Shown here piece by piece: positions 1 through 30,846 of a stretch of DNA of 64,000 bases. The stretch covers positions 3,672,001 through 3,736,000 of the forward strand of contig NC_021658.1 of assembly GCF_000418325.1 (NCBI RefSeq), read 5' to 3'. A program made the position numbers and the translations under genes. Source of the stretch: Sorangium cellulosum So0157-2 (GTDB lineage Bacteria > Myxococcota_A > Polyangia > Polyangiales > Polyangiaceae). Numbering within the stretch: the first letter of the stretch is position 1; each line of letters starts with the position of its first letter. The notes beneath the pieces were generated by a model. It was not told the DNA's origin and ran no database searches. It saw only the letters and a list, made by a program, of their open reading frames with translations.

Positions 1-1450
1 CCTCCGGCGTCCTCTCCACCTGCGCTTCGAACAGCTCGTGGAGGCACGCCTCCTCCGCGTAGCTCACCCCTGTTCCGTTCCACTCCGACACAAGCTGCCG
101 CCGCTCCGCCGCCGTCAGCAGCCCGAGCTCCCCTATCCGACGCTCCGGCCCTTCCGCGAGCCCTTCCAGCAGCGTCTGCAGGTGCCCCGCCATCCGCGCG
201 ATCGTCCCCGCGTCGAAGAGGTCCGTGGAATACTCCAGCTCTCCCCGGATGACGCCATCCGTCTCCTGGAGCGAGAGCGTGAGATCGAACTTCGCGGTGG
301 TGCTCTCCACCGGCAACAGGCTCAGGCTCACGTCGCCGAGCGACAGCGCCGGCAAGGGCATGTTCTGGAAGACGAACACCACCTGAAACAGCGGCGATCG
401 GCTGAGATCCCGCGCCGATGCGAGCTCCTCCACCAGCCTCTCGAACGGCGCGTCCTGGTGGGCATACGCGTCCAGCGTCACCTCCCGCACCCGGCGGAGC
501 AGCTCGACGAACGTCGGCTCTCCCGACAAGTCGGTGCGCAGCACCAGCGTATTGGCGAACAGGCCGATCAGCCCCTCGGTCTCACGCTGGGTGCGGCCCG
601 CGATGGGCGTGCCGACGACGATGTCGTCCTGCCCCGCGTAGCGCGACAAGAGCACCTTGAACGCCGCGAGCAGGGTCATGAACAGCGTCACCCCCTGCCG
701 CCGGCAGAGGTCCCGGAGCGCCGTGCAGAGGGCGCCTGGCAGCTCGACTGGGAGGGATGCTCCCGCGTACGACTGCACCGCTCGCCGCGCTCGATCCGTG
801 GGCAGCTCCAGCGCGGGCAGCGCCCCGCCGAGCTGCCGCCTCCAGTACGCGAGCTGGGACTCGAGCAAATCGCCCGAGACCCACCGTCGCTGCCAGAGCG
901 CATGATCCGCGGGTTGGATCGGCAGCTCGGGTAGCGGCGACGGCCGGCCGGCCGAGAGCGCGGCGTAGAGCGCGGACAGCTCGGCGAGGAAGACCCCCAT
1001 CGACCAGCCGTCACAGAGGATGTGGTGCACCGTCCACAAAAGGACGTGCGCTGTGTCGGAGAGCCGCAGCAGCGTCGCCCGGAAGAGAGGCCCCTCGCCG
1101 AGGTGGAACGGCCGCGCGGCATCGGCCTGCGCGCGCCTCCGCACCTCGTCTTCCTGAGCTGCCGCCGGCAGCGCGCCGAGGTCGATCACGGGCAGCGCGA
1201 AGCGGACCTCGCTGGCGATGACCTGGCGCGCCGCTCCAGCGGCGGCGGGGAACGTGGTCCGGAGCGCCTCGTGGCGCCGCACGATCTCGATGAGGCTCCG
1301 CTCGAGCGCGGCCGCGCTGAGCGGCCCCGTGAGGCGCAGGGCCGCCGCGATGTTGTACAGCGGGCTGTCCGGCTTCAGCTGATCCAGGAACCAGAGCCGC
1401 TGCTGCGCGAACGACAGCGGCAGCTCGCCTTCGCGCCCGGCGCGCTCCAA
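1..1450 (-). other. Second NRPS module: C domain and start of A domain, cut by window edge
   Basis: The C domain starts [16 protein letters not shown] and has [11 protein letters not shown], like ordinary LCL condensation domains. At the window edge the protein reads [14 protein letters not shown], the usual beginning of an A domain, so at least one more amino acid is added. Its specificity cannot be read here. Confidence 0.85.
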
Positions 1451-28100: not shown

Positions 28101-30846
28101 CGACGAAGACGCTGTGTCCCCGCTGAATCAGCGACGCCATCGCGTCGGCGAAGCGCACCGGCTCGGCCAGGTTCCTCGCCCAGTACGAAGCGTCAAACCG
28201 CTCGCCCTCCAAGGTCGAGCCGGTCACGCCTGAGCAGATGGGCACGCGCGCCGGGCGTGCCGATACGCGCTGCAGCGCCTCGAGCAGATCCTCACGGAGG
28301 GGATCGACCTGCGGGCTATGGGCCGCGACGTCCACGTTCACCTGGCGGCAGAAGACGCCGCGCTGCCCGAGCGTCGCGAAGACCTCAGCCAGCGCCTCTG
28401 GCTCTCCGCTCAGGACCGTTGCGTCGGGGCTCGCGTGGATCGCACGGCAGAGGCGCCCTTCGCGTCCGGCCAGCGCCTCGCCGGCCTCGTCCCACGGCAG
28501 CGCCACGAGCCCCATGGCTCCCTGGCCCCGGATGCGGCGAATCAGGCGGCCCTGCGTGCAGATGACGAGCATGGCGTCCTCGAGGCTCAGGGCGCCAGCG
28601 ACATGCGCCGCCGCGACCTCGCCGATGCTGTGTCCGACCACGAGCGCGGGCTCGACGCCCCACGAGCGCCACAGCGCCGCGAGCGCGACCTGGATCGACA
28701 CGATGGCCGGGCAGCTGACGTCGATCTCATCCATCCGCGCCCGCTCGCTGCCCGCGGTCAGCTCATCGAGCAGGGACCAGCCCACGCACCGACGGATGAG
28801 CCGATCGCAATCCCGGAGGACGGCCCGGAACAGCGGCTCGCGCGCGAGCAGCGAGCGCCCCATGCCCAGCCACTGCGAGCCCTGACCCGAGAAGACGAAG
28901 ACCGGCTTTCCGAGGCGCCCCTGCTCCGCGATGCCCGACGCGATCCCGGGTCCGCCCGCGACGCCGTTCGGCTCCGGTCCTGGTTCGCCATCGACGCAGC
29001 GCTGGAGCTTCTGCCCGAGCTCGCGACAGGAGCGCGCCGTGATGGCGAGGCGATGGTCGCCGTCGCTGGAGCGGAGCGCCAGCGCGCGGCAGAGCTCCTG
29101 GACCGAGCTGCGCGCCTCTGCCGGGGGCAGGTGCCCGAGGAGCTTCTGCGCGGCTGTCCGCAGCGCGTCCGGCCGCTCTGCGGAGAGCGGCAGGAGCTCT
29201 GCCTGCGGCGCGGGCCACTCCTGGAGCACGACGTGACAGTTCGTCCCTCCGAAGCCGAACGCGCTGACCCCCGCCGTCGCGAGCCTGTCCGTGTCTGGCC
29301 AGGCGCTGATCGTACGCTGAACCGAGAGGTGGAGCTCGTTGAACGGGATGTACGGGTTCGGCGTCTTGAAGTGCAGGCTGGGCGGCAGCTCTCGATGCTT
29401 GATGCAGAGCGCGACCTTGATGAGGCCGGCGATCCCCGAGGCGGCCTCCAGGTGGCCGATGTTCGTCTTGACGGAGCCGACGAGGAGCGGCCGCTCGGCC
29501 GGCCTGGCTGCTCCGAAAACGGAGCCCAGCGCCGCTGCTTCGATGGGATCGCCAAGCAATGTCCCCGTGCCGTGGGCCTCCACATAATCGACGGCCGCGG
29601 GATCCACACCGGCCTGCCGGAGGGCAGAGCGCAGCACGTCCACCTGGGCGCTTGGGTTCGGCGCGGTCAACCCGCTGCTGGCTCCGTCGTTGTTCACGGC
29701 GCTGCCGCGGATCACGCAGACGATGGGATCGCCGTCCGCGAGCGCGCGGGAGAGCGGCTTCAGCAGCACCACGCCTCCGCCCTCGCCACGAACGTACCCG
29801 TTCGCGCGCGCGTCGAAGGTGAAGCACCGTCCGTCCGGCGACAAGCCACCGAACTTGGACACTTGCATCGTGCTCTCTGGGACGATATTCAGGTTGACAC
29901 CGCCGGCCAGCGCGAGCGTCGATTCGCCCCGGCGCAGGCTCTCGCACGCGAGGTGTACGGCCACGAGGGAAGAGGAGCAGGCGGTGTCGAGCGCCAGGCT
30001 CGGTCCCTGCAAGCCGAGCACGTAGGATACGCGGTTCGCGACGATGCTGTGATGAAGGCCGGTCACCGTGTGCTGCGCGACGGCCGCGGCGCCGGCCTGC
30101 TGCGCCAGCGCAGCATAATCGGTCCAGACCACGCCGAAGAAGACGCCTGTTCGGCTCCCCTTGAGCTCTCCTGCCACGACCCCCGCGTCCTCGAGTGCCT
30201 CCCAGGCCAGCTCCAGCATGAGCCGCTGCTGCGGATCCATGTGAACCGCCTCTCGGGGGGATATCCCGAAGAAGAGCGGGTCGAACTGGTCCACGTGGTC
30301 GAGGAACCCGCCCCAGCGGGTGTTCATCTTGCCAGGCGCGGCCAGCTCACGATCGAACAGCGCGTCAGCGTTCCACCGGGCGCGGGGGGCCTCGGTGATG
30401 GCGTCCACTCCCTCCCGAAGTAGCCGCCAGAATTCCTCGATGTCAGGCGCTCTTGGAAGCCGGCAGGCCATGCCGATGACGGCGATGGGCTCGCGCGCCG
30501 AGGGCTGGGCCGCGCTCACGTCCTCGGGCGAAGCCAGCGCGTCTGCGCCTCTGGCGGCCGCCGCACCCGCCAAACCAGCGAGGTGCCGAGACAAGGCGTC
30601 AATCGTCGGGTGCTCCCAGATCAGGGTGGGCGGCAGGTCGCGTCCGAGCGCCTGCGACAGGTCGGCGAACAGGTGCATCGCACTGAGCGAATCGAGCCCA
30701 TAGCGGCTGAACCGCTCGCAGGTATCGACCAATCGCAACGGTATCCGCCCCAGCGCAACCAACCGATCGATGAGCCAAGTCCGGATCTCTTCTTCTGTTC
30801 GTACGGCTGCACGCCGAGCGGCTTCGTCCGTCGCTTGACTCATCAC
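16177..30846 (-). CDS. Modular type I PKS with split loading module (first protein of the line)
   Basis: A 4,889-residue synthase. Domain order with rough residues: ACP (20-95), KS (119-545), AT (648-930), second AT (1103-1390), DH (1460-1760), ER (2009-2309), KR (2319-2560), ACP (2600-2670), KS (2695-3120), AT (3225-3515), DH (3595-3880), ER (4150-4470), KR (4490-4730), ACP (4775-4840) and a C-terminal docking tail ending [13 protein letters not shown]. It starts the chain and performs two fully reducing malonate extensions before handing over to the next protein. All three ATs have GHSxGE and both KSs have DTACSSSL. The start is GTG at 30846 or the adjacent ATG at 30843; GGAGGGA lies 5-8 bases upstream. 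The protein begins directly with a carrier domain and no loading AT precedes it. A fatty-acyl-AMP ligase supplying the first ACP in trans is possible, but none is seen nearby. Confidence 0.96.
16300..22780 (-). other. PKS module 2: KS-AT-DH-ER-KR-ACP, malonyl-like AT
   Basis: The KS has [15 protein letters not shown] and [10 protein letters not shown]. The AT specificity site reads YAFH (near 20590), closest to the malonyl type. The DH has [10 protein letters not shown] and HPAFLD, both canonical. The ER is more divergent, with [16 protein letters not shown] and an insertion, but keeps [11 protein letters not shown]. The KR has [12 protein letters not shown] and YAAANAF. The ACP reads GADSL instead of GLDSL with the phosphopantetheine Ser intact. 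Predicted result: a saturated, unbranched two-carbon extension. Confidence 0.85.
22830..30846 (-). other. Split loading module plus module 1: ACP-KS-AT(L)-AT(E)-DH-ER-KR-ACP
   Basis: An N-terminal carrier domain ([10 protein letters not shown]) is followed by an intact KS and two consecutive ATs. The first AT has VAAH at the specificity site (near 28320), neither the malonyl HAFH nor the usual methylmalonyl YASH/VASH. The second has HAFH (near 26960). In myxobacterial pathways with this ACP-KS-AT-AT layout the first AT loads the starter onto the N-terminal ACP and the second charges the extender. The DH motif reads [10 protein letters not shown] with Asp in place of the conserved Gly; HPALLD and YGPAFQG are intact. 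The ER and a B-type KR (LDD) look functional. Confidence 0.85.

Follow-up and report, generated by a model that had tools for sequence, protein, structure and literature searches.

A Sorangium cellulosum gene cluster that probably makes a puwainaphycin/minutissamide-type cyclic lipopeptide

Puwainaphycins and minutissamides are lipopeptides known from cyanobacterial genera, according to the available text of PMC12473245. The puw cluster belongs to Cylindrospermum alatosporum CCALA 988, and its acyl unit is of the 3-amino-2-hydroxy-4-methyl type (PMC4219810). The excerpted account of its assembly gives the order acyl-Val-Dhb-Asn/Gln-Dhb-Asn-Ala(+E)-Thr-NMeAsn-Pro-TE, where Dhb is dehydrobutyrine, E an epimerization domain and TE a thioesterase (PMC4219810). 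The line described here comes from Sorangium cellulosum So0157-2, a strain that produces epothilone according to the genome report as excerpted (PMC3696898). The stretch analysed, hereafter the window, is 64,000 nucleotides long and spans C1:3672001-3736000 of one 14,782,125-bp contig (C1); window coordinates equal C1 coordinates minus 3672000, and positions to the left of the window are negative. It covers about half of a cluster of approximately 61 kb (C1:3642044-3702846), in which four large genes, A to D, run in one direction and encode a hybrid polyketide synthase (PKS)-nonribosomal peptide synthetase (NRPS) line. Judging from its genes, this line probably makes a puwainaphycin/minutissamide-type cyclic lipopeptide with nine amino acids.

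Domain order was read from motifs and phmmer matches, with Pfam backing for the pieces scanned. Extension to the left, as proposed in the initial annotation of the window, yielded the full cluster with nine complete adenylation (A) domains and a TE. Gene A and part of gene B lie within the window on the minus strand, while all but one of the nine complete A domains lie beyond it, as do the TE, a neighbouring monooxygenase and ABC transporter genes. Gene B (15916..-4996, minus, of which 1..15916 is in the window; 6970 amino acids) holds PKS modules 3 and 4, an aminotransferase domain (AMT) and the first NRPS domains; it begins KS-AT-DH-ER-KR-ACP-KS-AT-ACP-AMT-C-A-PCP-C and continues from 0 to -4996 as A(Thr)-PCP-C(special)-A(X)-PCP. 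Gene C (-18977 to -5157, minus) starts from a TubC_N docking domain and runs C-A'(half)-C stub-A(Pro)-PCP-C-A(X)-PCP-C-A(Y)-PCP-E-C-A(start only). The open frame of gene D (-29956 to -18545, minus), whose first ~108 codons overlap gene C, runs A(Thr)+FkbM-PCP-C-A(Asn)+methyltransferase-PCP-C-A(Pro)-PCP-TE.

The condensation (C) domain after the AMT (3317..4606), the A domain of residue 2 (1757..3151) and the C domain of residue 3 (149..1426), all on the minus strand, lie within the window. The C-A-PCP-C-A order initially assigned to the window thus holds there up to the second C, but not for the last A, as the alignment of the second A domain of gene B begins at -32, beyond the window edge. 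The A-domain codes were read by motif, with pocket positions following the customary GrsA numbering rather than an alignment to GrsA. They are DAFLLGGTF, DFWNIGMVH and DVWCIAMVY for residues 2 to 4, DVQYIAHVV, DVWCIAMVH and DSSARGEVV (+E) for residues 5 to 7, and DFWNIGMVH (+FkbM), DLTKVGEVG (+methyltransferase) and DVQYTAHVV (+TE) for residues 8 to 10. We take DAFLLGGTF to be Val-like, DFWNIGMVH to be Thr, DVQYIAHVV and DVQYTAHVV to be Pro, and DLTKVGEVG to be Asn, and the whole line would then read acyl-Val-Thr-X-Pro-X-Y(E)-Thr(FkbM)-Asn(N-MT)-Pro-TE. Naming X (DVWCIAMVY/H) and Y (DSSARGEVV) from their codes was attempted and gave no assignment; in the A-domain tree of 107 rows, X clusters with the line's own Thr A domains (support 98) and Y with a DAWSLGNVV clade (99). 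The E domain after Y scores 151.8 bits with TIGR01720 against a cut-off of 74.2 and falls in the E clade of the C/E tree. The second Thr A domain holds an inserted FkbM methyltransferase (PF05050, E 1.1e-19; TIGR01444), the Asn A domain an inserted methyltransferase taken as an N-methyltransferase (N-MT), and the terminus of gene D is a thioesterase (PF00975, E 1.7e-36).

For comparison, the AMT was searched against 291 Nostocales genomes, of which 99 matched, and the N-MT against 59 of those 99, of which 45 matched. Eighteen AMT regions were taken, mostly by frame length; 15 gave at least one A domain, and three (L098, L111 and L113) had no readable one. One puw-type line, that of genome G263, was found among the 18. 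Its PKS part comprises KS-AT-DH-MT-ER-KR, two AMP-binding ligases and KS-AT-AMT-monooxygenase. Its NRPS part reads C-A(Val), C-A(Thr), special C-A(Thr) and C-A(Val) for residues 2 to 5, C-A(DAWLFGLID), C-A(DIVQ..AVW)-E and C-A(Thr)+FkbM for residues 6 to 8, and, on the opposite strand, C-A(Asn)+nMT and C-A(Pro)-TE. The G263 cluster also contains a patatin gene, as does the published puw cluster.

The Sorangium line shares with the puwainaphycin/minutissamide family a predicted 3-amino-4-methyl acyl unit formed by way of an AMT module, which stands before a nine-residue NRPS that ends, with residue names as assumed above, in N-Me-Asn-Pro-TE. Val and Thr are the first two residues (2 and 3), an E domain follows residue 7, Thr precedes N-Me-Asn at positions 8 to 10 (Thr-Asn(N-MT)-Pro), and an ABC transporter adjoins the cluster. 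With G263 it also has in common the FkbM domain in the Thr-8 A domain and the special C domain that follows Thr-3, and both have a luciferase-like monooxygenase from one family. Six position features are thus common to Sorangium and G263, namely Val-2, Thr-3, E-7, Thr-8 with FkbM, Asn-9 with the N-MT, and Pro-10. Only 12 of the 362,880 possible orders of the nine Sorangium modules satisfy all six, a count made post hoc, after the match had been seen and G263 had been picked from the 18 AMT regions, which tells against leaning heavily on it.

The luciferase-like monooxygenase (351 amino acids; -31058 to -30003, C1:3640942-3641997, plus strand; PF00296 and TIGR04020, the latter at 469 bits against a cut-off of 244) is free-standing; it is encoded on the strand opposite gene D, with 46 bases between it and the end of that gene. 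Beside it are the ATPase and permease of an ABC transporter (-33221 to -31199, plus). The protein shares 47% identity over 346 residues with the monooxygenase domain of the G263 AMT protein, and a reverse search with that domain gave one strong match in the So0157-2 genome (E 5.1e-109; next 1.7e-6). Because this sole strong homologue adjoins the TE end of the cluster, an added 2-hydroxyl on the acyl chain is likely. No monooxygenase occurs in gene B between the AMT and the C domain, where the piece scanned matched PF00202 only.

The acyl chain would be built by gene A (16177..30846, minus; 4889 amino acids; ACP-KS-AT(starter)-AT-DH-ER-KR-ACP-KS-AT-DH-ER-KR-ACP) and the first part of gene B. 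Gene A opens with an N-terminal loading ACP (30580..30717; Pfam PP-binding; GLDSL motif), KS1 (29221..30495) and a starter AT (27982..28902; GHSIG, CTQGR, VAAH). These are followed by AT1 (26611..27537; malonyl-type, HAFH) and DH1-ER1-KR1 (23329..26409), and then by KS2 (21490..22770), AT2 (20245..21168; probably malonyl-type by the Phe of YAFH) and DH2-ER2-KR2 (16816..19977). In gene B, KS3 (14552..15826), AT3 (13307..14236; methylmalonyl-type, VASH, Arg kept, the putative source of the 4-methyl) and DH3-ER3-KR3 (10022..13111) precede KS4 (8192..9469), AT4 (6974..7873; malonyl-type, HAFH, with no reductive domains after it), ACP4 (6470..6673; Pfam PP-binding) and a class III aminotransferase domain, the AMT (4760..5836; YGKVIGGG; PF00202, E 1.5e-53). 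All of these domains are on the minus strand. Read with the customary meanings of PKS domain motifs, every domain, including the DH, ER and KR of all three reducing modules, has its usual motifs, with two departures: NTACSS for DTACSS in KS4 and Asp for Gly of HxxxG in DH1.

In ATs an Arg holds the extender carboxylate; it is kept in the other four ATs here and in the aligned EryAII chains but is replaced by Gln in the starter AT. This Gln, together with the N-terminal ACP, suggests an AT for a monocarboxylic acid; it indicates the class of starter and does not say which acid. The first modules of soraphen and myxothiazol-like myxobacterial PKSs are likewise arranged as ACP-KS-AT-AT, with an N-terminal ACP and two ATs, although to our knowledge those lines make other products and have no AMT. 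Since the starter is not fixed by sequence, the domain reading does not set the acyl chain length. As regards the extenders, HAFH has been paired with malonyl and YASH with methylmalonyl units, with EPOAT7 bearing VASH, and VASH and YASH have both been tried as the methylmalonyl side (PMC8058987, as excerpted). The Phe or Ser at the third place of the motif is described as a key residue in the relevant parts of PMC8058987 and PMC6164871, although a change of motif alone gave an incomplete switch of specificity (PMC8058987); YAFH does not appear in the text on AT motifs in these two sources. An extender order of malonyl, malonyl, methylmalonyl and malonyl is therefore supported, not proved. Motifs, phmmer and Pfam agree with the initial annotation on the starter, the two malonates and the methylmalonate followed by full reduction, the unreduced malonate and the aminotransferase. 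Because module 4 lacks reduction, is followed by the AMT and comes after the methylmalonyl module 3, the evidence supports an acyl unit of the 3-amino-4-methyl type; the colinear logic that places the amine on C3 and the methylmalonate branch on C4 holds, and the unit as first proposed is incomplete in lacking the 2-hydroxyl now predicted from the neighbouring monooxygenase.

Several observations weigh against a puwainaphycin-type assignment. The puw line employs an acyl-AMP ligase and a C-methyltransferase (C-MT), whereas the Sorangium line has a starter AT, three reducing modules and methylmalonate. No such ligase (FAAL) was detected, as an A-domain seed had no match in gene A and no AMP-binding domain was present in the 16 flanking open reading frames scanned, which are part of the flanks, the rest of the genome not having been searched. 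A C-MT as the source of the 4-methyl was likewise not found: the DH-to-ER stretch contains no methyltransferase in any of the three reducing modules, and AT3 carries VASH instead. In puw the monooxygenase is fused behind the AMT, but no such fusion occurs in gene B, and the Sorangium enzyme stands free. The A codes also diverge from those of G263 at residues 5, 6 and 7, the first of these being Pro in Sorangium. The monooxygenase family is widespread, being present in 40 of 377 genomes of the phylum, its own included (E threshold 1e-60; relatives in the other genomes share 45-54% identity), and because it is so common the weight of this gene rests on its location and not on its identity. The product is, moreover, a prediction from genes, and the assembly of genes C and D is doubtful, as discussed below. 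In the three respects of FAAL, C-MT and fused monooxygenase, the line is not a strict member of the puwainaphycin/minutissamide family, but it would work like one.

The domain trees likewise supply points on the unfavourable side. They comprise 119 domains for C and E, 107 rows for A and 69 rows for the AMT (matches longer than 330 amino acids only). Six ordinary C domains form a clade of their own in Sorangium (support 100) and in G263 (99), which indicates that each line was either homogenized or self-built. The E domain of the line falls among other Sorangium E domains (99) and its N-MT beside another Sorangium N-MT (97), the G263 N-MT being only ninth among the Nostocales N-MTs listed. The nearest relatives of the AMT are, weakly, those of Brevibacillus and Thiomargarita. 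The TE tree does not join Sorangium and G263, although the G263 TE is the top scorer after the line's own among 12 TE domains compared (197 bits). The C domain after the AMT is 35% identical to its G263 counterpart, which ranks seventh of ten, and just 4 of 10 C/E and 4 of 9 A domains find their best G263 match at the corresponding position. Position-by-position orthology was tried with the ordinary C and A domains, but these group by line and cannot decide the matter.

These groupings, along with the separate position of the AMT from puw and a GC content that is similar in the cluster part (0.69-0.74) and the remainder (0.69-0.76) of the window, would fit a convergent resemblance, in which a beta-amino lipopeptide line was built from the myxobacterial domain pool and only the layout is alike. 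This explanation overlaps with the puwainaphycin-type reading on the product, but it appears rather unlikely. Against it stand the same length, the six features in register and the special third C domain, which in the C/E tree forms a group with its equivalent in G263 and a domain of genome G145 (97). The Asn A domains of the two lines also group together with one of genome G168 (99), the Sorangium one being closer to that of G168 (88), and the single strong homologue of the puw-type monooxygenase domain in the genome sits at this cluster. The E domains and the C domains after them lie in the same classes in both lines, and class agreement in the C/E tree extends, by reading, to 9 of 10 positions, the exception being the C domain after the AMT; the Thr A domains group by line. 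Homogenization within each line would, in addition, mask an old orthology. An old shared line, later homogenized and with domains replaced, is thus somewhat more likely than a rebuilt one, and common descent with the cyanobacterial line is a possible inference; it is unproven, since the domain trees fail to connect its parts with puw. Recent transfer from cyanobacteria is unlikely in view of the window GC and the N-MT and E trees. It may tentatively be proposed that two phyla built machines to the puwainaphycin blueprint independently of each other, the Sorangium one having a wholly PKS-made chain from a starter AT and methylmalonate, a trans-acting 2-hydroxylase and several domains from the myxobacterial pool.

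Two further candidates were considered as guides and set aside. The FkbM unit was not suitable as a puw marker, with relatives in 47 of 291 Nostocales and 13 of 183 genomes of the order (its own included); FkbM insertion in a Thr A domain also recurs in other Nostocales clusters (L190, L191, L192, L193 and L194). The Sorangium FkbM domain is nearest to that of another genome of the genus (59%), followed by Nostocales at 51-54% (G263 at 53%). The closest FkbM unit, L189 (G166:C374), lies behind a partial A domain and before a PKS module in a different line. The relatives of the AMT were equally uninformative about the product: 37 loci, as well as 13 of 183 genomes of the order (own included; best other 51%), gave no match to the line, some loci having been read at short flank only.

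The initial annotation had suggested that the product may belong to a new compound family, its acyl unit being, with an acetyl starter, a plain 3-amino-4-methyldecanoyl group. The PKS and AMT domain reading, and the lack of a monooxygenase in gene B between the AMT and the C domain, would be compatible with that idea. It is nonetheless quite improbable, as the complete line follows the puwainaphycin/minutissamide plan: the peptide half matches a known family, a monooxygenase of the type fused in G263 adjoins gene D at a distance of 46 bases, and an acetyl starter is not determined by the sequence. Its accompanying remark that no characterised myxobacterial cluster with exactly this order is known agrees with the searches made, as no match was encountered in the 183 genomes of the order searched with the aminotransferase or in the literature covered. 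In open-licence literature, mostly at title and abstract level, no myxobacterial puwainaphycin-type lipopeptide was found, the nearest being a Paraliomyxa cluster that the excerpted text of PMC9960870 groups loosely with puw and several unlike clusters. Cystomanamides from Cystobacter fuscus, as far as described in the excerpt of PMC9581180, are also myxobacterial lipopeptides with a 3-amino fatty acid (3-amino-9-methyldecanoic acid) and a peptide of Asn, OH-Asn and OH-Phe, but they are linear and have the branch at the chain end. The iturin/mycosubtilin systems of the MycA type, with a seven-member ring and a fatty acid ligase start (PMC4219810), likewise derive a beta-amino fatty acid from a PKS module with an AMT and use it as the ring amine, although without the 2-hydroxyl and 4-methyl. 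The Sorangium line differs from this type, with nine A domains besides remnants, and genes A and B yielded no ligase.

The state of genes C and D could also mean that the cluster is broken or silent and gives no full product. A 191-bp tandem duplication at the C/D junction (C1:3653000-3653700; window -19000 to -18300) repeats C4852-C4915 at C4916 with a period of 191 bases; as this is not a multiple of three, it shifts the frame, which makes C and D two genes and splits the residue-8 module. The residue-5 module, the first of gene C (C1:3664200-3667000), comprises a C domain, half an A domain, a C stub, A(Pro) and a PCP and shares 99.6% identity at its front with the module that follows; it is an in-frame chimera or a misassembly. 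However, both oddities fall in repeats, with exact copies of up to 1524 bp in genes B, C and D, and window 1-223 recurs at 100% at C1:3653373-3653595. Because the 2013 assembly joined Illumina and 454 reads across such long exact repeats, wrong joins offer a plain explanation, with a real rearrangement as the alternative, and the 191-bp duplication is possibly an unmerged contig overlap. The PCR gap closure and fosmid end sequences mentioned in the accessible part of the genome report (PMC3696898) weaken this argument somewhat. On balance a broken cluster seems unlikely, and the puwainaphycin/minutissamide-type line is retained as the preferred reading.

In such a line, the starter AT would place a monocarboxylic acyl group onto the N-terminal ACP, and three reducing modules would extend it with malonate, malonate and methylmalonate. 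The fourth module would add a malonate and keep the ketone, which the AMT may then convert to the C3 amine. Nine NRPS modules would append Val-Thr(probably dehydrated)-X-Pro-X-D-Y-O-methyl-Thr-N-methyl-Asn-Pro, and the TE would close the ring onto the C3 amine; these residues, together with the hydroxylation, dehydration, methylation sites and cyclization, are predictions from the gene sequence. The neighbouring ABC transporter is the predicted exporter.

Other genes occur near the cluster and elsewhere in the genome. A methyltransferase gene upstream of gene A (31819-32913, minus) is a possible further member of the cluster. Near the cluster start lies a RibB-type gene (33103-34239) with a 3,4-dihydroxy-2-butanone-4-phosphate synthase and a weak GTP cyclohydrolase II part; a tie to the FMN-dependent monooxygenase is a mere thought. 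Glycoside hydrolase domains of families GH31 and GH3 with CBM6 occupy overlapping open frames at 39639-45868. The So0157-2 genome contains further large NRPS and PKS-NRPS loci (L181-L188), for example at C1:7160001-7200000 and 13513001-13553000, and some of them carry near-identical modules of their own in the C and A trees.

If the puwainaphycin-type reading is correct, this membrane-active family would also be present in a sequenced epothilone producer. The length and branching of the acyl chain would be set by PKS modules and not by a fatty acid chosen by a ligase. The Sorangium line would offer a direct test case for the retention or rebuilding of a single peptide blueprint in different phyla.

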